A stretch of 64,000 bases of DNA from [Phialemoniopsis] sp. UDSM-2020. Taxonomy: Eukaryota; Ascomycota; Sordariomycetes; Thyridiales; Thyridiaceae. The notes beneath the pieces were generated by a model that was given only the letters and a program-made list of their open reading frames with translations, searched no databases and was not told where the DNA came from. The stretch is from positions 806,001 to 870,000 of the forward strand of contig JAEILZ010000008.1 in the NCBI GenBank assembly GCA_018873225.1, in the 5' to 3' direction. The position numbers and the translations under genes were made by a program. Every line of letters begins with the position of its first letter. The first letter of the stretch is position 1. Shown in pieces: positions 21,198-60,697 of this stretch.

Positions 21198-21860
21198 TGT
21201 GAGAGAGCGGCACGAGATGGTCGGAAGCTTTGAACGAGTGCTCGACGCGATATTTTGACGTGGAGCCCAATATGACCGACCCCTGTAGTTAGAGCTAACT
21301 AGGCTTCTAGGGAGCTGCCTGTCCTTCAAACTCTTGGCGGTGTGGACTTTTCACTCGCACGCCAGTCAACCCACCTCGGCGCTACATCAAAGCGAAGAAA
21401 CCTGGGAGACTTCTTCTGTTACTACGGAAGTCGATCTCGGAGATGAAGCTCTACAAACCCCTTGTAGTCTTGGAATCTCTTCGGGATATCCAAAGCATCC
21501 CGCTGACTGTCCACCGCGCCATGGAACAATTCCATGCCCATAGACCTTCACAGTCATCTCCTGGAGGGAGGAGCTTGTCAATTACTGGGCGACTTTCTAT
21601 TTCGGCCTTCTTTTTAAATGACTTGTTGTGGTGATAGGATGCCTGTCAAGTCATTTCGCCTGAGGGACACTGGCGTCATTGGCCGGGATCATTCCGCGGA
21701 TCGGATGTGCTAGATCAACCCGCGGATCGGAATTCTTCATTTCTTGCCCAAATGAGTTGTGCTATCTAGCTCAGCAACAAGCTGCAGACTTAGCTTGGTC
21801 AAGTGGATAAAGGTTAAGTCTATAACACAGAGTGGCATTGAAGGCCAATAGTTCGCTTAC
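21198..21860. other. Divergent promoter of the F-box-like and P450 genes
   Basis: 663 bp with no gene. Contains the duplicated CCGCGGATCGGA motif described at 21694-21731. Confidence 0.45.
21694..21731 (+). promoter_or_regulatory. Duplicated CCGCGGATCGGA upstream of the P450
   Basis: Two identical 12-mers, 21694-21705 and 21720-21731, lie 26 bp apart and about 130-165 bp before the P450 start. CCGCGG is a two-half-site palindrome (CGG/CCG) of the kind bound by Zn2Cys6 dimers. The same hexamer recurs in the next two divergent promoters of the cluster. Confidence 0.55.
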
Positions 21861-23455
21861 ATGTTCAACACTGTCAAAAATTGTAGCATCATGATCCCCT
21901 ACATCACCGTGGCAGCGGCATTGGCCGTTGCAGTTCTTTTGATCAAACAGCTCCTCAGCTACCTCGACAAAGACAAATTGTCGCACGTGCCAACCCACAG
22001 CTTCATCGGAGACAACTCGCGACGGCGCTACCTAACCGACCTCAAGTCCTTGCTCGAGTCTGGCTACAGAAAGTATAGCAAGGCAGGCAAGGCGTTCAAG
22101 GTCACGATCCCTGTCGGCGGCTACTCTGTCAAGTATCGCGTGATCCTCCCGAAAGATCATTTAGAGGAGATCAAGCACTTGTCCAACAATGTGTTTAGCT
22201 GGCAGCTTGCTTCCAGGGTCATATTCGCACAAGACTACACTGGCGCACCTGACCGCGGCGCCTGGAGCGGCAAGGCACTGCGAGTCGGCATTCACCAGAA
22301 CCTCAAGGACATTACATCCCAGCTGCAGCAGAGGATCAGCACCTACTTCAAGGCGAACCTGCCTCAACATCCAGGTCAGGTTACTTCGATTGACTCCATG
22401 GACTTCTTTATCCCGACAATCACATACGTCACCAACGCTCTGCTTGTGGACGAGCGCTTGTCGTCGGACCCAGAGTGGCTGAGACAGACTTCCGAATTTG
22501 CCGTCAACCGCTACGGTGCGGCCGACGACGTGCGACAGTACCCTCCATACATCTCGAAGGTAGTCGCTCCTTTCATCCCCTCGGTCAGAAGACTCCGCCA
22601 GCAGAGGAAGTACGTGATGGAAAAGCTGAAGCCCATCTACGAGGAGCTCTTGGCCCAGGGTCTGCTCGAGAAGAAGAGCAAGCGAAAAGGCATCTTCGGA
22701 TACGAGTGGCTCTGGAGTGGTGCTCCAGACGACGTCACACTGCTGGACTTTTCCGACACGATGATGCGCACCTTGATCGCTGCAATTCATACAACAGCCA
22801 AGACCATCAGTGTAGCCTTCTTGGATCTGCTGTCCCGTCCAGAGCTTGTCCGGGAACTGGTAACGGAAGCCAAAGAAGCTAGCGATGGAGACAGCGTCGA
22901 TCTGGAGAAGCTTGTCAAGCTGGACTGCTTCTTGAAGGAATCACAGCGGCTGAGCCCGGTGTTTCTCTGTATGTTCACCTTGAATCTCTGGAAAGATACA
23001 TTACTAATCCATTGAGTGAATCAGTCACGATGAATCGAATCGTCACCGCAGATTACGAGTTCAAATGCTCGGGCTTGAAGCTGCCAAAAGGCACAATGGT
23101 CATGGCACCTGCGGCGGCGATCGCCACGGATGCAGACACGTTCCCAGACCCCAACACCTTTGACGGCCACCGCTATCTTCGCATGCGGGAGAATCACAAA
23201 GAGTCAGCGAGCTCTCTCGTGCTGGGCATGTCGACCATCGACTCGCTCGGCTTCGGCCTCGGGAACCAGGCATGCCCTGGCCGTTTTCTGGCCGTTAACA
23301 ACCTCAAACTGATGATGGCCAAGCTTCTCGTTGGCTGGGACATGGAGATTGCCAAGGATGGCGAAAGATACTCGGGGCCACCGCCAGTCATGCCGTACAA
23401 TGACTTTTCGATCGCTCCACCCAGAGAGTATAGCCTGCGCCTGAGGAAGATCTAA
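21861..23455 (+). CDS. Membrane-anchored cytochrome P450 monooxygenase
   Basis: Two exons, 21861-22968 and 23025-23455, give 512 residues. An N-terminal anchor helix (MIPYITVAAALAVAVLLI) places it on the ER. Then come the I-helix region (LIAAIHTTAKTISVAF), the ExxR motif E360-S-Q-R363 just before the intron, and the haem loop FGLGNQACPGRF with axial Cys453. The overall pattern (HVPTHSFIGDN, GYRKYSKAGKAFKV) resembles ent-kaurene-oxidase-like and trichodiene-oxygenase-like fungal P450s. A second ATG at 21891 is possible. The duplicated CCGCGGATCGGA upstream links it to the neighbouring catabolic genes. Substrate unknown; it could hydroxylate the cluster's aromatic substrate. Confidence 0.93.
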
Positions 23456-23871
23456 GAATCATGAGTGATGGCTATATCACTCGAACGTCGATTAGCTTGC
23501 TCTCCTCAGTGTAATTTATCAACAAATGCTCTATTGACCTGCGGAACTGAACTCGTAACCCATGCTTTGAAACACATTTGCTCATATCTCGGTGAAGCCT
23601 GTAACTAGTATCATCACTTAGTGGAATGATCCTATCAATACAATGGCCCAAGCCTCCTTGTGCTGAGCATGCATTGTAAGTGATATAGGATCTTCAATTG
23701 CAAGTATATGTCTTTACTCTTCCAGCTTCTGCTCATTATTCTTCCTCTTTTGAAGTCTAGACAATGAGAAGTCGCATATCTAGCTGGGGCGGTTCTCTCA
23801 AAATTACGCTTTGATAGACTAGAGAGGGTAACTTGATCTGCTCTAAATTTCTGTTGCCAGGCGAAACTCGA
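23456..23871. other. Convergent 3' flanks
   Basis: 416 AT-rich bp between the P450 and the decarboxylase-like gene. Nothing else seen. Confidence 0.4.
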
Positions 23872-24985
23872 TTATAACACGAACGACTCTAGCGTATTGG
23901 GTGCGAATAGTTCTTCAGGCTTGAACTTTCTCTTTGCCAGCCCCTGACCATAAGAGTACTGCAGGAACTTCTCTATCACATGTTGGTTTTGCGCAAATCC
24001 GTCCTGCCAGTACTTCTCCTCTCCCATCAGTCTCTTGGTTTCCAGGACATGGTCCTCGAGCCATGGGAGCATGTAGCGCAGGGCTGACCGGTCTGCGAGA
24101 GCGTCTTCAGCAACTTCAATGGATTTGGCAAACGCCTTTTGTAGAGATCTGGCAATCCAAGGGTTGGCTTTGTAGACCGTCCGTTTGATGGCGACGACAT
24201 GCATGATGGGGAAAATTCGAGTCCTTCGATAGTAGTCGGCCTCGACGCTCTTGAAGTCTGGGAAGAGGTAGGTGCAGTGCTCGCAGCGGTCGACGCTTGA
24301 GGGCTTGGATGCACTGAAGATGGCATCTATCTCGCCATCTTCGAGCATCTGGGACAGATTTTGGCCTGGCTTGATGGCTGTGACCCGCACGCCTGGCGGT
24401 AGAGAGTGCTGGACCTTGCTCTTGCGTTGCTCCTCAGAGGGCTCAATCGCACCGGTGAAGAACTCGACTTCAGTGAGGGCAACTCCAAAGTCTTCTTCCA
24501 TGATTCCTCTTTGCCACACTGCAGCAGTCACTGTGACTAAATTAGACTTTGTTGGAACTCTCGTCAAGAGTAGACATACTTTGATACTCTGGAATGCCTA
24601 TCCGCTTATGACGCAGGTCTGAAGGCTGTTTGATGCCCGAGTTGGTATTGATGTACATGGACTGGTGTCTGAAGAATCGTGATGGGAACACCGGCAGCGC
24701 GATGAACGGCGGGTTGTCCTGGTTGAGAGTAAGGACATACGATGACAGGGACAACTCTGAAACGTCAAATTCCTGGAAACGCAGCTGCCTGAAGAACCTG
24801 GGAAAGGGGCGAGATGAAGGGTCAGGCTCAGGAGAAGAGTTGAAGATTTCAAGAGGCATTACTTACGTTTCTTCGACACGGTAATTCAAGAAGGTTAGAT
24901 CTATTCCCTCTGCACGTACCCTCCCGTCCTCCAAAGCTTTCATGCGATCATAGTCCCAGCACGCGAACGATAGTTTGAGCACCAT
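23872..24985 (-). CDS. 4,5-dihydroxyphthalate decarboxylase-like protein
   Basis: Three exons, 24985-24867, 24797-24580 and 24530-23872, give 331 residues. The spliced protein starts MVLKLSFACWDYDRMKAL. It continues with FRQLRFQEFDVSELSLSSYVL, FPSRFFRHQSMYINTNSGI and DLRHKRIGIPEYQMTAAVWQRGI. This is the signature order of the 4,5-dihydroxyphthalate decarboxylase family, which has a periplasmic-binding-protein type 2 fold but no signal peptide here, so it is cytosolic. In bacteria the enzyme turns 4,5-dihydroxyphthalate into protocatechuate. It is divergent from the Zn2Cys6 regulator with CCGCGG sites between. The real substrate in fungi is not established. Confidence 0.88.
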
Positions 24986-25316
24986 GTTGAAATTGTGTTG
25001 CAGCAATGATGGGTATCAACGACTGATGCTAGGTTGAGGAAGCATTCCTCCTGGGGTCCTCCATAATAAGCTAGACAGAATAATGAGCTACCCCGGGAAG
25101 ATCCCCGCGGCGGAATTCCCAGCCAGCGATCGTTGACCCGGACATGCTTGCCCCCGCACTTTTCCCCACTGACGCTACTTGGCTAGCTTGGGTGAATGAT
25201 GTGGATGATCGAAAGCATTTAACAGTAATTCCGTCCCGCGGCAAGTTGGATGCTGTCGGCTCATCTCTTGTGTCTGCAACCCCTTAGGCGACACAACTGC
25301 TTGGAGCCGCCCAGCC
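24986..25316. promoter_or_regulatory. Divergent promoter with two CCGCGG palindromes
   Basis: 331 bp between the decarboxylase-like gene and the regulator. CCGCGG occurs at 25105-25110 (in CCCCGCGGCGG) and at 25236-25241. This suggests autoregulation and control of the decarboxylase by the adjacent Zn2Cys6 factor. Confidence 0.5.
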
Positions 25317-27679
25317 ATGTCCGAAGCCTCAGGGATATCGCGCAAGAAGCGCCTGGGGTTCAGGAGGGCCTGCGTTCCGTGCCGTCAGAAGAAACATCGC
25401 TGCGATGGCGTGAAGCCTCAGTGTCTGGGTTGTACCAGCAGAGGCCTTTTGTGCCGATATGGACAACGCGAAACATCGTCGTAAGGAGCTCCTTCTCTTG
25501 TCTGGTGTCGATACCGTTTATTGGTGTTCAACCTCTTGCTGATGCACTGTAATAGGCGCGACGAATCAAGCGTGATAACCCAGGGGCATCATGACAGCAG
25601 CCGGCCACTCAGCCATCAAGAACATCATCAAGACGTTGTTGGGTTGGCACAGCGGAATGCCCTCCCGACCCTTGGCCCTTTCGATTCGACATACTCGCCC
25701 GAAATACCAAGTCCGCCTGAAGACTTTCACAGGCGATCAAACGCTACGACCGTGTCCAGCACAGGGGACGAGGACAACAGGCCCAATCGAGGGCCTCGCA
25801 TTTCCTCTCAGCCAAATGGATACTTTGGCGACTCGTCGTCGTTCAAATTCGTCTCGGCGATAGGACCGGCATGTGATCCGGATCTCAGTAAAGACACAAC
25901 ATCACTTCAGGTACGCATTGCCAACACCACTTCCAGTCCGAGACATGTTGCTGATCAAGATTCATGACTGGATCAGGCACCAACCCCAACTCGATCATTC
26001 GAGTCTCCTCCCTCGGTTCTGCAAGGCACTTCGCTTTGCATGGATGGATTTCCTCCACAAGAATCCGCAAATCGTCTAGTGGACGCGTACTTTGAGCGTG
26101 TCCATGTTCTGTATCCGTTCATTCACGAGGGGAGCTTCCGAGCCCGCTACGAACGCCTGTGGGTCCAGGACGAACAGGACACCGAGCCGGCAGCTGACGG
26201 TGTCATCTGGATGGCCATTGCCAACCTTGTGTTTGCCTATGGACACGAGTTCTGTGTACAGTCGGAGGATGGCTTCGCCACCCTGGCCGCTCCATTCGTG
26301 GATCGTGCCAAGAGTATCATCATTTCCCATGTCTTCAAACATACAACCCTGCACCTCGTTCAAGCCCTGTTATTGTTGTGTCACTACCTGCAGGGCACCC
26401 TGGAACTGAACGAGTGCTGGAATCTCGTTGGCCTGATGATACGGGGTGCTATCAGCATTGGTCTGCACCTCGATCCAACAAAAGACAAGACGCTTTCGAT
26501 GGTGGAAAGGGAAGAACGGAAACGAGTCTGGTGGGGGTGTTTTGTCATGGACCGCACTATGAGCATGAAGCTCGGGCGTCCACCGTCAATCATCTTTGAC
26601 GATGCAAAGAACGTCGACCTGCCGCTCGAGGTGGATGATCAATACATTGGAGAGGCCGCCAGGCAGCCGTGGGGACGACCCTCACGCCTCTCTTTCTTTG
26701 TCCACACAATCAGACTGGCCGAGGTGATTGACAACATTCTTTTCAGGATGTATGACATCGGCAGGAAATCCCAGGCCGAGTCAAACGACAAGTTGTTCTG
26801 GTCTCACATCCCCGAAGAGTCTACGAACCTGGGCAATGCTGTCCTTCTCGATGGCCAGCTACATGCGTGGTGGGAGTCGATGCCCGTACATCTCAAGGTG
26901 GAGCCTAGCATCTCGGACGGCAAAGACTTTCAGCGCCAACGCCTGGTCATGCGTATCCGGTTCCTCCAGATCCGACTACTGTTGCAACGTCCTGTATTTG
27001 TTCTCTTGACTAAGAAGAAGATCAAAGACGAGTTTCTTAGCGGAGTGGCCATGGCGTCTGCTCAGACCTGCATGTCTGCGGCACGAGAGACGATCCGGCT
27101 GATCCACGACCGGTACGATGAGCAAATGCTAGGCTCTCTCTGGTATAATCTACACTGTAAGTTTGACGTCTTTATAGTTCCTTGACCCATGCCGTGGAAG
27201 CTGAATTGTCCATAGATGTCTTTACTTCGTTAGGGGTCCTCTTTACTGCACAAACGATGGAGCCGTCGATACGGAAACTGTTGACCTCCAATGAAGACGG
27301 ACACATCTTGCATTGTGGCATGGAGTTCTTGCGATCGGCCAGTGCGAATAGCATCCTCGCCTCTCGCTACGTCGCAATGCTGTCCAAACCCAAAAATCCG
27401 CCGAGCAACGGAAACACATCACTGCTGGGACATAGCAACACAGCTCCCACAGGTGATGAGACTGACGTGATCGAGGAAATTGCAAATGGCGGCTCAGACG
27501 AACAGGCGTATGATTTACAGCAAGTCCTCGACCGATCGGCAACTGGTGTTCATGAAACGGGCTTGGAGTTTGATCTTGCGCATCTCGATGCGATGTATTC
27601 ATATGACTTTTTGTTTGGGACGGGCTTGCCGCAGGAATTCGTGTCAACGGACTGGCCAAATTATGAGGCTACGATGTGA
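25317..27679 (+). CDS. Zn2Cys6 transcription factor, likely cluster regulator
   Basis: Four exons, 25317-25480, 25556-25910, 25977-27156 and 27216-27679, give 720 residues. The binuclear zinc cluster is complete: Cys19, 22, 29, 36, 39 and 46 (ACVPCRQKKHRCDGVKPQC). A Ser/Pro/His-rich linker follows. The fungal-specific transcription factor domain starts at VDAYFERVHVLYPFIHEGSF and contains GLMIRGAISIGLHLDPTKD and ERKRVWWGCFVMDR. The last splice restores WYNLHYVFTSLGVL, typical of this domain. It sits between the decarboxylase and monooxygenase genes, in the middle of the CCGCGG-bearing group. The acidic C-terminus may activate transcription. Confidence 0.9.
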
Positions 27680-27889
27680 TAATGAACAGCTCTTGAGAAG
27701 TTTTGGTTGTAAAATTGTTACGACTTCTAACACATACGAGATGGAATGTGAACAATCTTGTTGATTAATGTGGTGTATCACCGTGATATTCAGGCCCATA
27801 ACGAAGCTGTCGTTGTCTAAGTACTAATCTAATTATGGTGTATACATGGGACTTCCGAGTGACGAGGCAGCTGTTGCAACTTAATCTAC

Positions 27890-29964
27890 TCATTGTTGCA
27901 CATCCTTGACATCCTCGTTGGCCGGTAGTGCAAAGCCATCGAAGAATGATGAAATCTGGGCAACGTCTTCCAGACTCGTGATCAAAGAAACATCTACGTC
28001 GTGGAAACTTTAGTCTTGAATGGTAGTAAGAGGGAAAAAAGCCTTACGTTGATCTGGTCTAACGATGATAATCGCACCGTCATTCTCATCAATCCCAAAC
28101 TGCTCATAAGCATGACCGTGACCCGAATTGTAGCTCTCATCGTCAACGAAGACTTTATGGAGATCTAAATCATCCTGGCGTCAGCATACAAAAGTTTATC
28201 TACCATCCGACTCGTATCCAACCAAGACGGAAAACCTACCTTGGATTGCCCACTTCCCAGTGATAGGGGTGAAGACTGGTGGAATGGAATCCGAGTCAAT
28301 ATCTGTGCGTTGGCCGCATAAGACTAAGAGTAGTGACACAAAGCTGTCAGGATCTGCGTGCCGACTTGTATATCTACTCAATGGACTCTGATCCGAAGAA
28401 AAAGATTGTTGTAGCTAGAATGGGAGATATCATCAGTCGCCAGCTCAACCGAATGTCGACAGCTCTACTTGCCTTGTTCAGCCTCGATACAGTCTTCTCT
28501 CGGGTCAGATTGCCAGCAAATACCAAGATGCGCCATCGCAGATCCGCCCGAAGCGCCGTAGCCAGCTGCATAGCCCGAGCATCGCAGAACCTGACAACCT
28601 GAGCACTGGGCATTCGCATGCCGACATGGACGTGTTTCGCAAGGTGTTGCCGACTAGCGGCGACAGCTGTGATTGGGGACTCTTCATAGTTGTGTGTGAG
28701 GCCAGCCATATATTTCGCGCTCTGAAGAAAGTACTCGTGAAACTCTTCGTGGGTCGCAGAGTGGCCATTGGAGATTCTCGGTGTGTTCTCGGAAGTCCTA
28801 GCTGTGTCTTCGGACAGGATCGCATTCAGTTGGCGGTCAAACTTGATGAGATCTGCAGCAACCTTGCCACGTTCTTGAACATAAGTCTTGACAACTTCCG
28901 GCTTGACCTTCCCTTGCAGGGTCAGTGCCAATTTCCAGCCGATATTATATCCATCCTGTAAGCTGGTGTTCATGCCCTGCCCGGCTTTCGGGGAGTGTGT
29001 ATGGCAAGCATCACCAGCGAGAAAGACCCGATCCTGATAGGAGAACTCGTCTGCCACTCGCTGGCCGATGGAGTAGGCAGACCACCAGAACGTGTCTCTG
29101 ATCTCCAATTCGAAACCAGAGAGCACATCCTTGGCATGCTGGTGCAGATTCTCTAGTGTGACTTCTCGAGCGACGGTGCCCCGAGGCAGCTGCAGATAGA
29201 AACGGACAAGTGACCCTCCCTCTCTTGGAATTATGATTAGTATTCCGGCTTTCGAGTGGATAGTACACTTTCGACGGATATCTGGAAAGTTTGTGTGAGG
29301 ATAAATGTCGAGAACCCCCCACACAGCATCGCTCGAGTCGCCGACCATCTTGTACCCAAGGCATCGGCGCACGCTGCTATGAGCACCATCGCATCCCTGT
29401 TGACGAGTGTTACACCTCTGTACCGTACTCGAAGTCTCTGTGTGGACTTACAAGTGCATATTTCGCTCGGAAGATCTGCTCGCTACCTCCTTTGACAGCC
29501 ACGACCTCCACCGGGAACTCTTCAGACAACTGGTCCTCGACAACCTTTACTTCCTGTACGGTGTAGCCATAATCTATAGTCTGCCCCGGGTCTTGGCGAA
29601 AGATCTCACGCAGCATAATGTCATTGACACGTGCTTGATTTAGGATGACGTGCGGCTGATGGGAGAGTCCTTTGGGGGTGTCAGGGGCTCGACTGGTCCG
29701 GCGAATTTTCCCGGTCACATCATCTGCAGCCCAGAACGCCAGCTCCATGACATGGTAAGCTTCCTTGAGCAGTGGCTCGACAATGTCGAAGCTCTCAAAG
29801 ACCTCAACCGTCCGGCACTGCACTCCGTCAGCTTGGCCGACCTGCAGCGGGCCTGGCGATCGCTCCAGCAGTCTGAACGAAACCCCTGCCTTTGCCAGCC
29901 ACAGGGCTGCACAGATACCTGCAGACCCGCTGCCGCAGATGACTACGTCTGTCTTGATAACCAT
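27890..29964 (-). CDS. Phenol-hydroxylase-family FAD monooxygenase
   Basis: Five exons, 29964-29452, 29396-28473, 28414-28240, 28164-28048 and 27993-27890, give 610 residues. The FAD dinucleotide motif is GSGSAG at 11-16 (VVICGSGSAG). The substrate domain contains GCDGAHSSVRR, and the second FAD motif is GDACHTHSPKAGQGMNTSLQDG. The C-terminus is the thioredoxin-like dimerisation domain of phenol 2-monooxygenases (LHKVFVDDESYNSGHG, IIIVRPDQ, FFDGF). Intron 2 (28415-28472) has a GC donor, AAG|GCAAGT, and a TCTAG acceptor; only this splice joins SRLNK to the next domain in frame. It hydroxylates phenolic acids by analogy. It is divergent from the MFS gene across a CCGCGG-rich promoter. Confidence 0.88.
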
Positions 29965-30460
29965 GGTCGCGCCGCGCAAGCTTTCGGTACGCGAATGTTG
30001 CTTTTGCTGTGAGCTCTCTCGACTGGTCAGCCATGCTGAAAGAGGCGCTTCGTAACGCAGAGCAGGTGACGCAGGTGACTTTACAAAAAGACCTAGAAGC
30101 TCCCCGCAATCTCCAACATGAGTTAGCGGGGCCGTGTGGGGAGGGTGTTCACACCTTTGTGGGACTGGCTGGTCCCGCTACGGCAAGTTGACTGTTCCGC
30201 GGATCAATGGCTTGGCATGCCGCGGTTCGTTTCGATTCCTTCACACTTCTCGCGGCGACTCCCATGCGCTCAATGTGATGCAGACAACTCGTGTAGTCTG
30301 CGGATGAGGAGTTGTCTGGAGATGCCAAGCCGCGGGGACTCCATGCTGTGACAATCCGGCGTAAGGTCCATCGAGTCTCACATACTTATAGCAGCATTTG
30401 CGTGCGCATTGGACCTCAGCTTCTTGCTTGTCTCTGCAAGCCAACTGCTCTTCTGTGATC
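29965..30460. promoter_or_regulatory. Divergent promoter with three CCGCGG palindromes
   Basis: 496 bp between the monooxygenase and the MFS transporter. CCGCGG occurs at 30197-30202 (followed by ATC, as upstream of the P450), 30220-30225 and 30330-30335. A nested inverted repeat lies in the same stretch. Confidence 0.5.
30211..30329. repeat. Nested inverted repeat in the monooxygenase/MFS promoter
   Basis: Outer arms CTTGGCAT (30211-30218) and ATGCCAAG (30322-30329), each beside a CCGCGG, enclose inner arms CAGACAACTC (about 30281-30290) and GAGTTGTCTG (about 30309-30318). Both arm pairs are perfect. This could be a protein-binding array or a hairpin. Confidence 0.5.
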
Positions 30461-32210
30461 ATGGCTAAAGAGACCGATAGTAGGCCACAGGAGGCAACTA
30501 ACACGTCCGTGGCGACCATGACTCTCACCAAAGAAGACTCCTTTTCCGAGGTCAACAAACCCAAGTCGACCTTCAACCACATCGAAGACGGTGAACTTGA
30601 CGCAAGATACAATCAGTATCGCGCTGCCGGACTCACCGAAGATGACGCCACGTTTCTAGCTGGTTTCAGCCCCGAGCAAGAGCATGCTGTCTACCGCAAG
30701 GTCGACCTGCGACTTGTACCTCTCCTATCCCTGCTGTACCTCGTCTCCCATCTGGATCGCGCAAATATTGGTACGTACTCCTGTGTCACGGATTTAGCTG
30801 TCTTTGAGGATTGACGTTATTGGTACTTTGCAGGCAACGCCAAGATTGAAGGGCTAGAGAAGAGCCTGAACATGAAAGGCTCCGACTACAATGTTGCCGT
30901 CGCAATGTTCTTCATTCCCTACATCATCTGCGAAGTGCCCAGCAACATGATTCTGGCCAAGTTCAAACGGCCAAGCCGCTACATCGGCATGCTCGTCGTG
31001 GCTTGGGGCATCGTCGTGACATTGACAGGTCTGGTCAAGAGTTTCGCCAGCCTTTGCGGCACGAGGTTTCTCGTGGGCTTCTTCGAGGCTGGGTTCTTCC
31101 CCGGCAGCATCTGGCTCATTTCGCAGTGGTATCCTCCACGTCGAACCCAGGCTCGTACCGCCTGGTTCTACCTCTCGAGCGCCGCATCCGGGGCCTTTTC
31201 AGGCCTGCTCGCGGCGGGTATCGCTCAGATGGATGGGATCGGGGGTTATGCAGGGTGAGTTGGCACGCTCCAGCGACGGTCTCAATCTATTGACTTCTTG
31301 CCTTAGTTGGAGCTGGATCTTTATCATTGAGGGAATAGTATCAGTTTTGTTTGGATTGGTGACATTCTTTCTCCTGCCTGATACTCCAGCCTTTTCCGGA
31401 CGATGGCTCAAGCCCGAGGAACAACGCTTTCTCAACCTGATGCACTGGGTCACCCGAGGACACAGTACGCGGGAGGTCGAGGAAGGGCAGAGGAGACGAC
31501 ATTTTGACTGGGCAGTAGCAAAGCAAGTTGTCTGCGATCCTCACCTGTACCTCCAGGCACTGGTGCAGGCCGCCAACACCGTGCCGAACAACGGTCTCAA
31601 GTTCACCATGCCCCAGATTATCCGGAATATGGGCTTCACCTCCACTCGTGCCCAACTCCTGAGCGCCCCGCCCTACATCAGCGGTGCCGTCGCCGCCATC
31701 GTCTCCTCGATCTGGGCAGACAGGTACTCAAAGCGTATGCCGCCGATCGTGTTGTTTCAAGGCCTGGTCATCGTCTCTATGGCCGTGCTTTTCGCCTTCG
31801 CAAGCCAGATCAAGACACACGTCGCACTCTGCTATTCCATGGTCGTACTGGCATGTATCGGCGTATATCCGATCGTACCTGGCTGCAACGCATGGACGGT
31901 GAACAACCTCGCCCCGACCGAGAAAAGGGCCATGGGGATTGCCTACGTGGTGACCTTGTCTAACCTGGGTGGCTTTGTCGGAAGTTGGATCTTTATCGAT
32001 CACGAAGCCCCAAGGTATCCCACCGGGTTTGGCACATCGCTGTCTTTTGCTGCTGCCGGTATGTGCGCGGCATTTCTAGTCGACTTTCTTTACTGGCGGC
32101 ACAACAGCAAGTGGGAGCGTGTGCCCAGGCACGAGATCGAGGCCAAGTATACCGCGGAGCAGCTACACAAGATGGGTGACAGGTCTCCTCTATTTCGATA
32201 TGGACTCTAA
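30461..32210 (+). CDS. MFS transporter, anion:cation symporter (Dal5/Tna1-like) family
   Basis: Three exons, 30461-30770, 30834-31254 and 31307-32210, give 544 residues with about twelve membrane segments. The family signature SHLDRANIGNAKIEGL spans the first junction. It continues with DYNVAVAMFFIPYIICEVPSNMIL, GTRFLVGFFEAGFFPGSIWL and SWIFIIEGIV. Members carry carboxylates and related anions such as allantoate, nicotinate or phthalate-like acids into the cell at the plasma membrane. A cytosolic loop of about 60 residues with a basic RRRHFDW stretch separates the halves. Its position beside the monooxygenase and the shared CCGCGG sites make it the probable importer for this cluster. Confidence 0.9.
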
Positions 32211-32931: not shown

Positions 32932-34922
32932 ATGAGAATTGCAAAAATGCGCTCTTCGGCATTTCACGCGGCCGTAGCCACCGCCTTCCTTTCTACGACA
33001 GCCGCCGACTCGTCTTCCACCAGAAGCCAGCACAGGCTGTTTTCCAGCGCCTTTGGCTATCCTGGAATCGATGCTACCTACGACTATGTCGGTACGTCTA
33101 TTCGCCTCGTCATACTGCATTGTTCAATGCCCATTAACACACACAGTCGTCGGCGGCGGCACGGCCGGCCTGACACTCGCCCGGCGCCTCGCAGCGCACG
33201 CCTCCGTCGCCGTCATCGAGGCCGGCGGCTTCTACGAGGTCGAGACGGGAAACGCGAGCGTCGTGCCGCTCCTGTCCCTCACGGGGCTCGCCTTCCTCGA
33301 CCCCACAGACACCTTCCTCCCGCAGCCCCTGGCCGACTGGTCTCTCGTCACGCAGCCCGTCGCCGGCGCCGCGGGCCGCCGCTTCCACTACGCGCAGGGC
33401 AAGACGCTCGGCGGCTCCTCGGCCATCAACACCATAAGCTACATCCGCCCGACGCGCGGCGCGTACGGGCGCTGGGCCGAGATCGTCGGCGACGACGGCT
33501 ACGAGTGGGACGCCATGCTGCCGTTCCTTAAGAAGTCCGTACACCTGACGCCACCGGACGAAGTCAAGCGCAACTCGACGGCCGCGCCGGTGGTGTATGA
33601 CCCGGCGGCGTTCGACCCGGCTGGCGGCCCGCTGCAGGTGTCGTGGAACAACTGGGTCGACCCGACGCTCGCGTGGATGGCCGAGGCCGTCGCGCAGGCA
33701 GGCTTGCCGCTCAGCGACGAGGGCTTCGAGAGCGGATCGCTTGTCGGGCACGGGGCGTGGGTTCCGTCGACGATTGACCCTGAGAGGGCGACGCGGTCGT
33801 CGGCTGAGTCGAGCTTTCTGCGGGAGGCGATCGAGCAGACAGATCTCGTTGCTTACACGCACACCCGTGCCAAGAAGATCTTGTTTGACGGGTCTAGTCC
33901 GCCCAAGGCTACTGGCGTTTCGGTAGATACAGGTGGCCTGGGTTACACTATCTCGGCCAAGAAAGAAGTCATTGTGTCCGCCGGTGTCTTTCACTCTCCA
34001 CAGCTGCTCATGGTATCTGGTAAGACAAAGGCTGAACCCATTGATTTCATTACTCCCCAGCTAATATGATACAGGGATTGGACCTGCATCAACACTGCAG
34101 TCCCACTCGGTCCCCGTCGTGGCTGACCTTCCAGGCGTTGGCCAGAACCTGTGGGATCCCATCCAGATCTTTGCTTCCTACCAGACCGACACAGTCTCGG
34201 GCCAGGTCCTGACCGCCAACCTCGCGACTGCTCCCCAGTACCTCGAGCAGTATCTCGACGACGCCTCCGGTCCCTACAGCTCCGCCGCCGGGTTCTTGGC
34301 CGCCGAGCGTGTGCCCCCCCGCTACCGTTCCAACCTGACCAACGAGACCCTCACAAAGCTCGCCTCATGGCCCGATGACATGCCCGAGCTCGAGTACATT
34401 GTCGGCAGCTTCGTCGGCCCCAACCTGACCACCATGGCCACGACGGCCGTCTTCATGCCCCTAGCCTTCAGCCGCGGCAACGTGAGCATATCTTCGGCCG
34501 ACACCGCGGACCCGCCCGTTATCGACCTGGGCTGGTTCACCGACGACGCGGACCTCGAGCTCGCCCTCGTCGGACTGAAACGCTTGCGCAACGACGTCTG
34601 GCAGACACCGGCGGCACAGGAGCACAAGGTGGGCGAGGAGCTGTTGCCCGGTGCTGCGGTGCAGACGGACGAGCAGATGCGCGAGTACATCCGGCAGAAC
34701 GCGAACCCGATCTGGCACGCGTGCGGAACATGCGCCATGGGTAAGGCTGCGGATGCGGCGGCTGGGAAGGCTGTAGTAGACAGCCATGGCAAGGTGTTTG
34801 GCGTCGAGGGTCTGCGTGTAGTCGACGCGAGTGCCTTTCCTTTTGCTATGCCTGGTCATCCACAGTCGGCTGTGTACGGACTCGCTGAGAAGATTGCGGA
34901 TGACATCTTGAACGGAGCATGA
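32932..34922 (+). CDS. Secreted GMC-family FAD oxidoreductase
   Basis: Three exons, 32932-33091, 33147-34019 and 34075-34922, give 626 residues. A signal peptide is likely (SAFHAAVATAFLSTTAA). The FAD motif VVGGGTAGLTLARRL spans the first junction. GMC signatures follow: YAQGKTLGGSSAINTISYIR, EVIVSAGVFHSPQLLMVSGIGP, and at the C-terminus WHACGTCAMG with the active-site His, then MPGHPQSAVYGLAEKIAD with the second His. Several N-x-S/T sites fit secretion. It may oxidise an alcohol or sugar and make hydrogen peroxide. Exon 2 is much more GC-rich than flanking DNA. Membership in the catabolic cluster is doubtful because its promoter lacks CCGCGG. Confidence 0.9.
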
Positions 34923-55373: not shown

Positions 55374-56327
55374 CTATCCAATAAGAGACATTTTGTCAAG
55401 GTTCCAAGTATTATCCGGAGCGAACAGTCCCGCGAAATGCGCCGCGATATCATTACGCTTCGCAATCCATGCACCCTCAAACTTACTCACGTACTCGAGG
55501 AAGCGGAGTATGGAAGCCACCCGTCCGGGCCGCATAATCCGAGCGTGGAGACCGATCGACATGACCGTACCGCTCTCGTCAGACTCGCGATACAAGATGT
55601 CAAAGGCGTCTTTGAGGTAGTCAAGGAAGTCGGTGGAGCCAGTGTAGCCCGGACCGGACTGGCCACCCCAGAAACGAGCATCATTGGTGTCTACCGCGTA
55701 GGGAAGAACAAGCATCGGTCGGCCAGAAACGTCCGCGAAGTAGGGCCGGTCATCATTGGTGGTGGCCGAGTCGTAGAGGAGTCCTTCCTCTGCCATGATG
55801 CGACGGCTGTTGTCGGTGATAGGTGGGCGCGGGAAGGCGCCGAGTATATGCTTGCCCGTAAGCTCCAGGGTCTGATCAACAGATCGTCTTAAGTCTGCTC
55901 TCTCCATCTCCTCTGTCAGGCCGATTCGACTGATGGAACGGGTGCCGTGGGAAATGATATCGCAGTTTTCGGTCTTGAGCCTCTCTGCGAGAGCTGGGTT
56001 GACGGTAAGAGCTTCTGACGATAAGAAAACGCTGAAGGGAGCGTTAAACTCTTTGAAGAGGCGCAGTAGACGCCATATGCCGACTCGGGTGCCGTACTCG
56101 TACTCGCCCTCCTGCATGAGGTCGCGCTCGCTATCGGGGAGAGCGCTCCTCACCCAGGTGCGCGAGTCGCGAGAGCTGTCGCCCAACAAAGGGTTACGCT
56201 CCGTGCCCTCTTCATAGTTGATGGCAAAGTTGATGGCGACCTTCTTGCCTCCAGGCCATGAAAACTTTGGAGGGTTGTCACCATACCCGGTGAAATCTCG
56301 GACACGAGCTGTGGTCACGCCGGCCAT
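55374..56327 (-). CDS. PuuE/NodB-type polysaccharide-deacetylase-family hydrolase
   Basis: A single-exon frame of 317 residues without signal peptide. It follows the allantoinase-like PuuE branch of the NodB family: NFAINYEEGTERNPLLGD, YEYGTRVGIWRLLRLF, CDIISHG (His127), DLRRSVDQTLELTGK, GLLYDSATTNDDRPYF, LPYAVDTNDARFW, YLKDAFDILYRE and SIGLHARIMRPGR. PuuE enzymes open the hydantoin ring of allantoin; relatives act on other cyclic amides or N-acetyl groups. The usual SHGWRW is SHGTRS here, so the substrate may differ. It is divergent from the Zn2Cys6 regulator across 323 bp containing the shared operator-like motif. Confidence 0.85.
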   Translation of the reverse strand: MAGVTTARVRDFTGYGDNPPKFSWPGGKKVAINFAINYEEGTERNPLLGDSSRDSRTWVRSALPDSERDLMQEGEYEYGTRVGIWRLLRLFKEFNAPFSVFLSSEALTVNPALAERLKTENCDIISHGTRSISRIGLTEEMERADLRRSVDQTLELTGKHILGAFPRPPITDNSRRIMAEEGLLYDSATTNDDRPYFADVSGRPMLVLPYAVDTNDARFWGGQSGPGYTGSTDFLDYLKDAFDILYRESDESGTVMSIGLHARIMRPGRVASILRFLEYVSKFEGAWIAKRNDIAAHFAGLFAPDNTWNLDKMSLIG

Positions 56328-56650
56328 GTTGAGTTTGGTCTCGTCAAGAAAGGGTGTTTCCCTTCACGGGAGTTCCAGGAAGTCCCTATCTTCCGAGCCA
56401 TTATATCGTACAGGGCACGGACAGCGGTGTCGGAGTGACACGCTGATGCCGGTGATCTAGGACAGCATGCCGGACGGTGTTGAACACGCGGATAGCTTAT
56501 CCACCATGTTAGTCTCTCTGAGACCAATAACATCGTTCCATAGCTCTTATCATTTTCGCGCTAGGCGTTTCGACAAAAAACTCCGATATTAGCCTCCGCA
56601 TCCCCGCAATCCTTGGCTCGTATCCTCACTGTTCTCGACCAACAGATACC
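56328..56650. promoter_or_regulatory. Divergent promoter with CGCTAGGCG-type element
   Basis: 323 bp between the PuuE-like gene and the regulator. The element at 56559-56578 reads CGCTAGGCGTTTCGACAAAA and nearly matches one in the NMT1-like/MFS promoter at 60308. Confidence 0.5.
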
Positions 56651-58848
56651 ATGGAAAGCCTATCAACACGACATCAACGCAGGATGCCGTTGGAGCGCAG
56701 GAAGCGTGAGTACCGGGGGAACTCATGCCTTCGATGCCATAAGCAAAAGATCAAGTGTTCGAGAGGTTTGTATCACATGCCTATCGCCGACTGTGCCTTG
56801 CATCATATCCCTGACTCGACATGTGACAGAGACACCATGCCGGAATTGCGCACTGGCACAGCGGCCCTGTACCTATGCAGTTCGCGACAAGAAGGTGACC
56901 GTTACGGAAAGCTACATCAAAAGGCTTGAGGACGCAGCTGCTGCGTTAACACCGGGAGCCAGCAGGACCAGCTCGAAGACTGCACCGCGTAATGGCCATG
57001 AAGAGGCGCCACCGGCCAGCAACGCGCGGCCACTCAGTCCTCTGGTCGAGAACTCTACCGTCGAGCTCTTTGTGTCCAAGCTGAAACAGATACACAATGC
57101 GAGAGCGGACCAATACTCGTCACCAGGAAGCGACCCAGCTCATGGGTCATCAACGGAACTCCCGACTTACGAATACTTTGCGCTGAACTCTGATACATCA
57201 CGTACGTGTCTTCTCTGGGCCACTTACTACGCGCTTGAGTTGACATTCTTCTGTCTAGATGCGAAATGCACATTCAAGCTACCACCTCGTCCTTACGCCA
57301 TTTATCTCCTAGACCAATTCCTCACATATGTCGGGTACGACTGGCACTGGTTCCGCCTAAAAAGATTCCGACAACGACTGGACAGCATATACAGAGGCAC
57401 TGATGCCGCGCAGTCCAAGGATCGGATATGGCTCTGCCAATTGCTCCTTGTCTTCGCCTTTGGCGCGTCCATCAACGGCCAGGAGGCTCGGGTCGAGCTG
57501 GCGTCGTCGGGCCACACACCAGAGTTCATCGAATCTATATCCACTCCGAGTGCCATTCCCGGCACGGAGTTCTTTGAACAAGCGTTGGGTCTGCTCAAAG
57601 TACCCTACGAGGAGGTTTCGGTAGAGCATATTGAGACAATGAACTTGGTGGTACGAATGCATCCCCAGCTGCTGACCTGAAACGTTACTAACTTGGAGCT
57701 GCAGGCACTCTGCTCGTTCTCCTTGAACAGACAAAAGACGGCATACACCTACGCAGGTCTTAGTGCACGCATGTGCAACATGCTGCAGCTCCACAAGGCA
57801 TCGGCATCGGCAGATTGCTTACCTATCGAACGGGAGAACAGGAAACGGGTGTGGTGGTCGACGTTTTGCATCGACAGGATGGCAAGCACGCAGACAGGCC
57901 TGTTGCCCGCGCTGCAGATTGATCAAGTCGACCTGGACTATCCTTCACAGGCATGGCTACTACCTGAGGACCTCGAGGAATTTGGCGATGCACCATCACT
58001 CACGGCTCGTGTAAAGATCACCATCATCCAAGCCGACGCAGCGACCAGTACGTGTCAGTTTGGGCACGACGATGCCCACGACATTGATACAATATTGCGC
58101 CCGATACTCCGGAGGCTCGATACGTGGAGGGCGGAGCTCCCAGTCCACATGGCCGACGGTCTCAAAGATGGACTGCCGGATGCGACTGGACAAGTGGCTG
58201 CTGTGCGAGCCCTGGCCAACTTGCACCTTAGACACAACCAGGTAGGTTTACGCCCTCACATTCAACGACTTTGTTTCTGACCTTGACAGTGTGTAATACT
58301 CTTGCTTCGACCTCTTCTCTTGAGGCAAATAGCCTGCATTAGCTCCAATGAAGAGCTGACTGCACCACAAGACGACTGGCGCGGCCTTAATGATATTTGC
58401 TTGAGAGCTGCTCGATTCAACCTCAAGACCCTAGTTGAACTACGGAAACGTGGGTTGTTAGGTATGTAGACCTCCCCAGACGTCTCCCAACCACGCACTG
58501 ACAGCCCCGTCAGCACGGCTTGGTATCATGGAAGCCATGCACCTCTTCTCTAGTCTCATGATCGCCTGCCTTGCCATGTCGATCAATGCCCGGCGACCAG
58601 ACAGCTTCCAAGAAGAGGTTGATGATCCTTTGACCTACGCCACGGCCAAGGAGGCGCTTCACGATATGGCGCAGACGGGAAGTTTTGCCGCTCGGGGCCA
58701 CGAGGCGATGCTGCAAGAAGTTGAGACATTGGGACAGAGCATAGCGACAGTCAGCGCTGAGGGTATCGATCTTCTCACGGAACAATGGGATATGGATGAG
58801 TGGATTAGCCAGCTGTTTGAAGGCGAGAATATGCTGGACATGTTTTGA
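56651..58848 (+). CDS. Zn2Cys6 transcription factor, likely regulator of the second cluster
   Basis: Six exons, 56651-56765, 56830-57201, 57259-57650, 57705-58241, 58290-58461 and 58514-58848, give 640 residues. The first intron splits the zinc cluster; joined, it has Cys26, 29, 36, 42, 45 and 52 (SCLRCHKQKIKCSRETPC). A short coiled region follows (VTESYIKRLEDAAAAL). The regulatory domain includes TYAGLSARMCNMLQLHKAS and ERENRKRVWWSTFCIDRM. The C-terminus ends with acidic, Trp-containing WDMDEWISQLFEGENMLDMF, which looks like an activation segment. It sits between the PuuE-like and NMT1-like genes. Confidence 0.9.
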
Positions 58849-58912
58849 GTAGGCTTAATCATCACCAATAACAGTCTTGCATATCATACTTTTCTGATCC
58901 CTTCTATCGTGT

Positions 58913-59881
58913 CTATTGTGTCACCCCGTTTACACATCCTAGTAAAGCATTTGCTGCTTGAGCAGGCCCATCATCCACAATGACCTCGTACGGAAACGGC
59001 TCCCTCGTTAGATGCCCATCCGCAATGCCCTTCTGCCACCTGTCAAAGCCATGCCGGCTCACAGTTGGAGACGACCACATGCTATCGCGACGGTATGTAT
59101 TCGCGAGCTGTACAAGCAGATCGGCAGGAGCGGCAGGAAACAAAGCTACAAGGTCGTCTTTGTACGTCTCTGCGTCATTTTGCAACACGTACTCAGTTCC
59201 TTTCTGCAGCGCGGCGCAGAAACGCTTCTGCACGTCCAGTACCGCGGGCGTGATTGTCTCGGCCTCACGGTAGTACACGCTCCAGGGGATGTCGCCACCG
59301 CCCGTGACCATCTCCATCGCGATGGAGACGTCTGAGTTGTTCTGCGCCATCAGGCGGGCCGAGACGTTGTCGATGAGAAAGTACTCGCCCATGCCGCCCT
59401 GGAACAGCTTGGACAGCATCACGCCATCCAGGTCCTGGACGTAGCCGACAGAGTTCGGATCAACGCCGTTCTCGCGGAGCAGCATCTTGAAGAAGAGACC
59501 CACGCTCGCACCGTTGCCGGACTTCATCAGCACCGTCTTGCCAACCACATCGGCGAGCTTGAAGGGGCCAGCGGCGCCTCGCCTGATGAGGGCCAGTGGG
59601 CACCGGTTGGCGACCTGTGCGAAGGCAGTGTACTTCTTGACGGTGTTGTAGTACATGGAAGGCACCCATATTCCTCCGAGCGCCGCAGCGGCGGTGCCGT
59701 CAGCGAGCTCATCGAGCACGCGGTCCCATGGCTTGGGGACGGACACGGTCACTTCGAGGCCTTGTTCTTTGAAGAAGCCTTGTCTGTCGGCGATATATTC
59801 GGGCAGATAATTGAGACTGTGACCGGTTGCGGCGACATGAAAGCGTGTCAAGCCGCTGCTTTCCCCGTTGGAGGTTGCCAT
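58913..59881 (-). CDS. NMT1/THI5-like (SsuA-type binding-protein fold) cytosolic protein
   Basis: A single-exon frame of 322 residues. It has the type 2 periplasmic-binding-protein pattern of the NMT1/THI5 family: LNYLPEYIADRQGFFKEQGLEVTV, ALGGIWVPSMY, VGKTVLMKSGNGASVGLFF, GYVQDLDGVMLSKLFQGGMGEYFLIDN. No signal peptide or lipobox is present. The Cys-rich CCCFC motif of the THI5 HMP-P synthase is absent, so it is probably not the thiamine-precursor enzyme. The role could be an enzyme on the fold or a ligand carrier. It is convergent with the regulator (64 bp apart) and divergent from the MFS gene. Confidence 0.85.
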   Translation of the reverse strand: MATSNGESSGLTRFHVAATGHSLNYLPEYIADRQGFFKEQGLEVTVSVPKPWDRVLDELADGTAAAALGGIWVPSMYYNTVKKYTAFAQVANRCPLALIRRGAAGPFKLADVVGKTVLMKSGNGASVGLFFKMLLRENGVDPNSVGYVQDLDGVMLSKLFQGGMGEYFLIDNVSARLMAQNNSDVSIAMEMVTGGGDIPWSVYYREAETITPAVLDVQKRFCAALQKGTEYVLQNDAETYKDDLVALFPAAPADLLVQLANTYRRDSMWSSPTVSRHGFDRWQKGIADGHLTREPFPYEVIVDDGPAQAANALLGCVNGVTQ

Positions 59882-60697
59882 GGTTGGCTGGGGTTGCGGT
59901 ACAGTAAAGTGGGATGAGGTGTGTTGGGAGTGAATGGGTGGGCGGACTCAGACAGGTACTGGGTTGGGCACTTCATAGATCCTCAGAAGAAGTGCAGGCC
60001 AGCCACGCCAAAAGCTCTAAGGGCGTGCGCTTCTGTCAAGCATGCAGCCAAGACTGGGGTTCCCGCTCCCGGTCTGCACGGCGTTTTCCTTGGCGCTCCG
60101 GGTCTAAACGATAAAGGATAGGTAAAACAGGACAACCTGCCGTAGCGTTCGTTCACCTCTGGTTATCCTTCTCCGGATATTATTACGTGCCTCTTCTTCG
60201 CATGGTTTCCGCCTGATTTCTTTTCCCTAGCACAAGATGGTCTTGTGATAGGATTTACAAATGGGATCTGCGAGATAGGATCCTCGACAACAGGGCGATA
60301 TCAATGGCGCTAGGCGGTTCGAACAAAATGCCTAGCGTGGATTTCCTCCTTGCGGGGTCTCCGTGTACGGCAGGTCAAAGATACCGCTCATGAGTCGGTA
60401 GTCCGATTATGCGGGTCTGTGATAAGGATGGAGCCAGTGAAACGGATTGTGGCCAGACCGAAGTTTCCTTGCCACAGACATGCACAGTATCACGAGTTGC
60501 GGACGGTAAGCCAGGGAGGTTTCCCTGGGAGGGTGTCTCTATAGCGTCGCAATGGCTCGGTCGTGATTGTCCTTCCGGCTGTAGTTTATAACCAGCTTGA
60601 CCGGCTCTCTGTCTATTCCCTCGATCCGCAGAGTCCGGACTTGGTCGACATCCTTGTACTATTTGACAAGACTCCTGCAAAGTCTCCCTGCCTCACC
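59882..60697. other. Divergent promoter of the NMT1-like and MFS genes
   Basis: 816 bp without a gene, carrying the palindromic operator-like element at 60308-60337. Confidence 0.45.
60308..60337. promoter_or_regulatory. Palindromic operator-like element
   Basis: Perfect 8-bp arms CGCTAGGC (60308-60315) and GCCTAGCG (60330-60337) flank GGTTCGAACAAAAT. The left arm plus centre closely matches 56559-56578 in the other divergent promoter of this cluster. Confidence 0.55.

Follow-up and report, generated by a model that had tools for sequence, protein, structure and literature searches.

Organization of the gene cluster

We analysed a 64,000-nucleotide stretch of the genome of the ascomycete [Phialemoniopsis] sp. 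UDSM-2020 (assembly GCA_018873225.1, contig JAEILZ010000008.1, positions 806,001 to 870,000 of the forward strand), hereafter called the window, in which five adjacent genes form a putative catabolic cluster for a phthalate-type aromatic acid. The genes occupy positions 21861-32210 in the order cytochrome P450, 4,5-dihydroxyphthalate decarboxylase homologue (DHPD), Zn2Cys6 regulator, flavoprotein hydroxylase and MFS transporter. All five are intact and bear introns, and their products can be read without interruption once the short GT..AG introns are removed; the splice sites were picked by hand, and the gene models come from sequence alone.

The P450 gene (21861-23455, plus strand) has one intron between exons 21861-22968 and 23025-23455 and encodes 512 amino acids. 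The DHPD gene follows on the minus strand (24985-23872; exons 24985-24867, 24797-24580 and 24530-23872, two introns, 331 amino acids) and is divergently transcribed from the regulator gene (25317-27679, plus strand; exons 25317-25480, 25556-25910, 25977-27156 and 27216-27679, three introns, 720 amino acids). The flavoprotein gene (29964-27890, minus strand; exons 29964-29452, 29396-28469, 28353-28240, 28164-28048 and 27993-27890, four introns, 591 amino acids) is likewise divergent from the transporter gene (30461-32210, plus strand; exons 30461-30770, 30834-31254 and 31307-32210, two introns, 544 amino acids). The cluster therefore has three promoters, a single one for the P450 and two divergent ones. 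Pfam searches with the exon pieces gave p450 for the first gene, Zn_clus and Fungal_trans for the regulator, FAD_binding_3 (PF01494) and Phe_hydrox_dim (PF07976) for the flavoprotein and MFS_1 for the transporter, and the two larger DHPD exon pieces gave no match at 0.001. A first-pass annotation of this DNA had reported five adjacent genes of these classes, and the models bear it out; the start it gave, 21694, coincides with the first copy of the promoter element described below and precedes the P450 start codon by 167 bases, and its end, 32210, is the stop codon of the transporter.

The host genome comprises 44.2 Mb in 11 contigs. The best protein matches come from ascomycetes. The GC content of the cluster (0.52-0.54) falls within the range of the window (0.51-0.60), which, together with the presence of introns, argues against bacterial contamination.

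A common element in the promoters

The word CCGCGG was first spotted by eye in the promoters of the cluster and then tested. The three promoters, which serve all five genes and amount to 1337 bp, contain seven copies: two in the P450 promoter, at 21694-21699 (context TTCCGCGGATCGG) and 21720-21725 (context CCCGCGGATCGG), two in the DHPD/regulator promoter, at 25105-25110 and 25236-25241, and three in the flavoprotein/transporter promoter, at 30197-30202 (context TTCCGCGGATC), 30220-30225 (context GCCGCGGTTCG) and 30330-30335. It is thus a common cis-element of all three promoters, and no copy was found in either of the two convergent gaps of the cluster. The expectation derived from the rest of the window is 0.32 copies (Poisson P 5e-8), and none of 2000 dinucleotide shuffles reached seven, the maximum being three. 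Since the word had been noticed before it was tested, all 911 canonical 6-mers of the promoters were ranked; CCGCGG came out at the top, with CCCCGC as the runner-up (P 1e-4). Elsewhere in the genome 11 copies were counted in 40 kb, that is 0.28 per kb, a density similar to that of the window.

CCGCGG is an everted CCG-CGG pair, a usual type of site for Zn2Cys6 proteins, and the element bound by Pdr1/Pdr3 in S. cerevisiae is TCCGCGGA. Two of the seven cluster sites contain this very sequence, an everted pair with zero spacer. Unlike in the Pdr1/Pdr3 setting, the sites described here precede presumed catabolic genes and the protein that binds them is putative; the Zn2Cys6 regulator of the cluster may well be that protein. 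The shared element suggests that the five genes act together.

A genome search found one further DHPD-like gene, on contig C9, 69% identical to the window gene over its longest exon, and this locus served as an independent test of the placement of CCGCGG. At about 3750050-3756310 the DHPD paralogue lies together with an MFS transporter, assigned by Pfam, and a paralogue of the regulator, and beside them is a P450-like frame that was read from the sequence, its first exon having no Pfam match. The regulator paralogue is the best-scoring one of the window regulator (42-48% identity; 62 of 394 candidates were scored), so that the DHPD-regulator pair is present twice in the genome. In the 10-kb stretch around the locus all three CCGCGG sites fall inside hand-drawn promoters (P 0.002-0.003), two promoters in all, and the regulator gene of the C9 locus has no copy in its own promoter. 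Two of the three sites extend to the palindrome CGANCCGCGGNTCG, and the full palindrome is absent from all seven window sites. The genome holds five copies of CGANCCGCGGNTCG, two of them at the C9 locus, against eight of a reversed control pattern; the palindrome is not over-represented genome-wide, and it is therefore its placing that counts.

Linkage of the P450 and decarboxylase genes in other fungi

We looked for the cluster genes in other fungi using the organism names, locus tags and contig sizes in the lists of protein matches, taking for comparison the best 120 of 7975 matches of DHPD, the best 120 of 6883 of the flavoprotein and the 92 relatives of the P450 found at E 0.001. Fourteen other fungi are named for both the P450 and DHPD, and fungi named in a single list were excluded. 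Genes were called linked when they lay on the same contig, carried consecutive tags or had been joined in one merged model; the contig was judged to be the same when its size was identical within the organism. Among the matches listed, the P450 and DHPD were linked in 9 of the 14. They share a contig of 727 kb in F. falciforme, 107 kb in A. californicus, 613 kb in Cadophora 0126, 94 kb in Cadophora DSE1049 and 71 kb in E. xenobiotica, where the tags are consecutive (LTR96_011057 and 011058). They also share one in Exophiala aquamarina, although this link is weak because the contig measures 5.4 Mb. In T. pinophilus and A. thermomutatus both genes are contained in one predicted protein, in opposite orders in the two species. 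One fungus, A. udagawae, was left unassigned: its entries name differing contigs, and the two clusters in question represent many member sequences.

A flavoprotein lies with DHPD in a few cases. In Colletotrichum karsti a single model, CkaCkLH20_05307, holds both the flavoprotein (64% identity) and DHPD (81%) and adjoins the P450 (05306), so that all three enzymes are neighbours. A Bogoriella flavoprotein (54%, M1820_004643) has the tag next to that of DHPD (M1820_004642), and in Rhizodiscina a flavoprotein (56%) and DHPD lie on the same 496-kb contig. The merged models of T. pinophilus, A. thermomutatus and C. karsti are most likely prediction errors across adjacent genes; true fusions could also produce them but are not favoured. 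A neighbourhood that is kept while the order of its genes changes is the pattern of a functional cluster.

The two genes also diverged in parallel. The identity matrices of DHPD and the P450 for ten linked pairs, including that of the window, are correlated (Mantel r 0.77, P 4e-4; the F. falciforme P450 in this set is a partial model of 334 amino acids), and the correlation drops to r 0.465 (P 6e-4) once the five unlinked or unassigned species join. Within the ten there are pairs contrary to kinship: A. thermomutatus is closest to Cadophora in both genes, and A. californicus to T. pinophilus (82/81). Such a pattern fits the P450 and DHPD having been inherited or transferred as a unit, and old duplications followed by loss would also account for the pairs contrary to kinship.

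Identity and origin of the decarboxylase

PDB entry 9jp7, to which its depositors gave the name '4,5-dihydroxyphthalate decarboxylase', matches DHPD along its whole length, at residues 3-329 (E 3e-79). This full-length homology places DHPD in the 4,5-dihydroxyphthalate decarboxylase family (EC 4.1.1.55 type), and its fold is predicted from the same match. Whether these decarboxylases belong to the UbiD superfamily is left open in the available portion of PMC6644310. Among the matches listed, the nearest named bacterial relatives are actinobacterial and about 60% identical.

In a midpoint-rooted tree of 67 chosen sequences, two of which form long branches (L018 and L014), all 31 ascomycete rows make one group (100/100), and all fungi together with three environmental rows make another (100/91). 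Beside the fungi stand Actinobacteria (Amycolatopsis, Actinomadura, Streptomyces and others) and environmental rows, jointly at 100/99; further out are Pseudomonadota, Bacillota and other Actinobacteria, and the protein of Novosphingobium KA1 and other operon members fall outside the fungal clade. The window gene clusters with sequences of Fusarium, Exophiala aquamarina, Cladophialophora psammophila and two Aspergillus, and the C9 paralogue belongs to another ascomycete group, with Niveomyces and Coniochaeta. Since the fungal sequences are nested in a bacterial tree, the gene most likely entered from bacteria, in one acquisition, and would then have been inherited by, or passed between, fungi.

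We viewed the surroundings of bacterial relatives in 5 of 40 listed plasmid matches and in three genomes reached through an Acidimicrobiaceae record. Plasmid pCAR3 of Novosphingobium KA1 carries, in a row, a Rieske gene, nadC, a Gfo/Idh/MocA dehydrogenase, DHPD and an MFS gene; on pPNAP04 of Polaromonas CJ2, DHPD is accompanied by Rieske, reductase and dehydrogenase genes. One of the Acidimicrobiaceae-linked genomes has DHPD beside a Rieske protein (best match 9ina, E 6e-135; also 7fhr, a putative phthalate 4,5-dioxygenase, E 1.5e-92), and a second has it beside a 4-oxalomesaconate hydratase (2gwg, E 5e-140), an enzyme of protocatechuate 4,5-cleavage. Near DHPD in the third, only a hydrolase and a zinc dehydrogenase were seen, both weak family matches. 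On the AntQ-1 plasmid nadC and a VanB-type reductase lie near DHPD, with no Rieske gene among the genes listed, and a Caballeronia plasmid record with a DHPD match carries no annotation. On the Microbacterium sediminis plasmid (11303-14511) DHPD is situated between two class II aldolase genes and a cis-dihydrodiol dehydrogenase. The M. sediminis region is near two Rieske systems and possibly belongs to a combined route for another aromatic acid.

The family name could be misleading, in that DHPD and its neighbours would act by a different decarboxylation on a hydroxylated aromatic acid other than a phthalate. Such a reading would be consistent with the distance of the window protein, about 43-48% identical, from the homologues encoded in the two plasmid regions that are clearly phthalate-like, with the fact that the phthalate-type contexts seen are those of relatives more distant than the actinobacterial ones, and with the bacterial contexts that are not phthalate-like. 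As the match to 9jp7 is full-length and phthalate-type contexts appear at several places in the tree, we regard this explanation as improbable.

The flavoprotein, the P450 and the transporter

In the PDB the flavoprotein is closest to 3-hydroxybenzoate hydroxylase 2dkh (E 5e-122), ahead of phenol hydroxylase. The full-length matches and the pair of domains FAD_binding_3 and Phe_hydrox_dim assign it to the thioredoxin-like-domain class of group A hydroxylases, the clade of phenol hydroxylase and 3-hydroxybenzoate 4-hydroxylase (3HB4H). Asp46 is kept in all 121 flavoprotein sequences compared, and His105 and Lys214 each in 119 of 121. In the alignment with 2dkh, Lys214 corresponds to Lys247 of 3HB4H, which the available portion of PMC12915361 describes as a basic residue at a pocket position of the clade. 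The entire clade shares this lysine, which on its own does not define the substrate. Relative to one of its carboxyls 4-hydroxyphthalate is a 3-hydroxybenzoate, and a second hydroxyl introduced para to this carboxyl and ortho to the existing hydroxyl turns it into 4,5-dihydroxyphthalate. By this analogy the regiochemistry of 3HB4H would fit the conversion of 4-hydroxyphthalate to 4,5-dihydroxyphthalate. The closest paralogue of the flavoprotein (54%) lies elsewhere in the genome, at C10:2766268-2777030, with an Amidohydrolase_2 gene, a zinc alcohol dehydrogenase and a Fungal_trans regulator, and this region is possibly another aromatic cluster.

The best of the 92 P450 relatives, from F. oxysporum, is 78% identical, and the matches of the P450 in the PDB are weak and general. 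The best solved relative of the transporter is the D-galactonate transporter 6e9n (E 2e-11), which we take to be a member of the anion:cation symporters (ACS). The transporter is thus probably of ACS type, in agreement with the first-pass annotation, which had called it an ACS-type importer. An origin of the transporter from its MFS counterpart in the phthalate region of KA1 was considered and rejected, the two proteins having no detectable relation.

P450s, flavoproteins, transporters and regulators are gene classes also typical of biosynthetic clusters, and a GMC oxidoreductase follows the transporter at 32978-34919, so that the five genes might instead tailor or export a toxin as part of a secondary-metabolite or detoxification cluster. 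We set this explanation aside as very unlikely because the scanned frames contain no backbone gene: in the Pfam scan, which covered the 25 open frames of the window of at least 230 amino acids, none of the 25 had a polyketide synthase, nonribosomal peptide synthetase or terpene synthase domain. It is also at odds with the kinship of the transporter, whose best solved relative is a sugar-acid symporter, and with the catabolic operons that house some of the bacterial relatives of DHPD.

A putative route for phthalate

We consider it somewhat more probable than not that the five genes make up a fungal catabolic cluster, regulated as one, for an aromatic dicarboxylate of the ortho-phthalate type. 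The reading builds on the intact genes, the element present in all three promoters, the linkage and parallel divergence of the P450 and DHPD and the homology of each enzyme; from these we infer the substrate, the order of the steps, the pairing of regulator and sites and the fate of protocatechuate. The transporter would import the acid, phthalate or 4-hydroxyphthalate, and the P450 would add the first ring hydroxyl, converting phthalate to 4-hydroxyphthalate. The flavoprotein would then place a second hydroxyl ortho to the first, yielding 4,5-dihydroxyphthalate, and DHPD, probably captured long ago from a bacterium, would strip one carboxyl from it, leaving protocatechuate to enter the beta-ketoadipate pathway. 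Through the CCGCGG elements the Zn2Cys6 protein would activate the whole set of five genes, among them its own. For the later steps the genome offers nine intradiol-dioxygenase matches and ten matches of the lactonase family PF10282, which presumably holds the fungal carboxymuconate cyclase.

Several observations weigh against this reading or narrow it. The P450 and DHPD are on separate contigs in 4 of the 14 fungi (C. immunda, Leptodontidium 2 PMI_412, Ilyonectria robusta and Rhizodiscina lignyota), and three of the nine linked fungi (T. pinophilus, A. thermomutatus and C. karsti) were counted through merged models, without which the figure becomes 6 of 11. Linkage across species was followed for the P450, DHPD and the flavoprotein, which limits the case for a five-gene set. 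Among the best 120 relatives of the flavoprotein only that of C. karsti stands out as an orthologue, and no entry there is named for three fungi with linked P450 and DHPD genes (E. aquamarina, F. falciforme and A. californicus), although listed clusters can hide members. The flavoprotein is thus probably not a fixed member of the cluster, and in the fungi without a listed one its place would have to be taken by another hydroxylase or by the P450 itself. The matches listed for the P450 include no tested aromatic-acid activity, labels such as ent-kaurene oxidase being those of the sources themselves; we know of no relative with a tested function, and to our knowledge the P450 is in no known aromatic-acid family. 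Finally, of the nine intradiol-dioxygenase matches three were compared with the PDB and were nearest to catechol or hydroxyquinol types, so that a protocatechuate 3,4-dioxygenase was not demonstrated among these three.

The same counts bear on two further explanations. The genes might be unrelated and adjacent by chance, which would agree with the four fungi in which the P450 and DHPD are unlinked and with a flavoprotein that is seldom linked. The shared promoter element, the linkage with parallel divergence and the duplicated DHPD-regulator pair speak against chance, which we hold to be extremely unlikely. Alternatively, the logic of the cluster may be the same and the acid another one: the P450 would O-demethylate or hydroxylate a phthalate that carries substituents, such as 4,5-dimethoxyphthalate or a derivative of phthalic acid of fungal or plant origin, the P450 and DHPD forming the core and the flavoprotein being an accessory in some lineages. 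That the P450 and DHPD are the visible conserved unit, joined by the flavoprotein in few fungi, would suit such a substrate; against it, the flavoprotein shares its CCGCGG promoter with the transporter and adjoins DHPD in C. karsti and Bogoriella, and no evidence names a substituted phthalate. We find this version unlikely, though the least unlikely of the alternatives.

On balance there is good support for the phthalate-type reading, which is still to be proven. The first-pass proposal of one aromatic-acid unit ending in decarboxylation is supported; that all five genes form an obligate set is uncertain, the flavoprotein being linked in few fungi. The joint occurrence of the families elsewhere was likewise found in part, for the P450 and DHPD in the nine fungi and for all three enzymes in C. 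karsti.

More tentatively, and with somewhat more doubt than assent, we suggest that fungi built a complete Rieske-free phthalate pathway of their own. Its decarboxylase, acquired in a single event from an actinobacterium-like donor, would have been combined with a flavoprotein hydroxylase and a eukaryotic P450 under a CCGCGG-binding Zn2Cys6 switch, and the P450-decarboxylase unit would then have been kept, duplicated and possibly passed on among distant ascomycete orders. If true, soil fungi would have gained a Rieske-free means to mineralise phthalate.

Relation to known systems

The fungal cluster shares the DHPD family with the bacterial phthalate 4,5-dioxygenase operons (pht/oph), as seen on pCAR3 of KA1 and pPNAP04 of CJ2. 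The KA1 region has further similarities, namely an MFS transporter, although not a detectably related one, regulators and, at a distance of 3 kb from DHPD, a flavoprotein that belongs to the same class and is 34% identical. The fungal cluster differs from the operons in having a P450 and a flavoprotein, and none of the 25 long window frames gave a Pfam match to a Rieske oxygenase, a reductase, a Gfo/Idh/MocA or dihydrodiol dehydrogenase or nadC. This agrees with the first-pass proposal that a P450 and/or a flavoprotein could supply the hydroxyls for which bacteria use a Rieske dioxygenase and a dehydrogenase. By analogy, the predicted fungal route resembles the bacterial one from the decarboxylase on and is not a member of that operon type. 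The enzymes of the bacterial route are listed in a review (PMC13040137) which, in the portion available, speaks of bacteria.

The flavoprotein resembles the 3-hydroxybenzoate 4-hydroxylase MobA (2dkh) in its two domains and the kept basic pocket residue; unlike MobA, it sits beside a dicarboxylate decarboxylase, and its substrate is predicted. PhhA of Aspergillus niger is placed in the same clade as MobA in the accessible part of PMC12915361.

The A. niger gene An15g07340 was annotated as a 4,5-dihydroxyphthalate decarboxylase in a genome-scale network in 2007 (PMC2375020), and finding the enzyme in a fungus is therefore no novelty. The likeness to DHPD is one of annotated activity, and the portion of that paper at hand describes no cluster, P450 or regulator. 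Clustered catabolism of aromatics with bacterial genes, proceeding via protocatechuate, is described for toluene in Cladophialophora immunda in the sections available of PMC5595782. As far as these sections go, the C. immunda clusters are similar to the present one in those respects and differ in using a CYP53-kind benzoate hydroxylase; the word 'phthalate' occurs 0 times in the main text of that paper. Searches of CC-licensed PMC full texts, which leave subscription journals mostly outside, listed no published fungal cluster of the present composition; the first-pass annotation likewise knew of none. As far as these searches reach, the cluster, the promoter element, the conservation and the route to the substrate are new.

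Phthalate is a plasticiser residue. It is also a product seen when fungi oxidise polycyclic aromatic hydrocarbons, and a 'phthalic acid' pathway of Aspergillus sydowii was inferred from spectroscopy and annotation, the consulted part of the report naming no gene set (PMC8087790). The cluster offers candidate genes, a candidate regulator with its site and a stated reaction order for a testable fungal phthalate route. It would exemplify the integration of a bacterial enzyme into a fungal P450 pathway and provide a concrete Rieske-free fungal route, of a familiar general type, with good comparative support and a predicted substrate.

Genes surrounding the cluster

To the left of the cluster is a frame of 527 amino acids that had no Pfam match. 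The GMC oxidoreductase gene lies directly downstream of the transporter, and the CCGCGG words at 33369, 34472 and 34504 fall within its coding frames; it was left out of the cluster because nothing links it to the five genes. Near the end of the window, at 55377-61900, an MFS transporter is closely grouped with a polysaccharide-deacetylase-like gene and an NMT1/THI5-like protein, the latter related to substrate-binding proteins.

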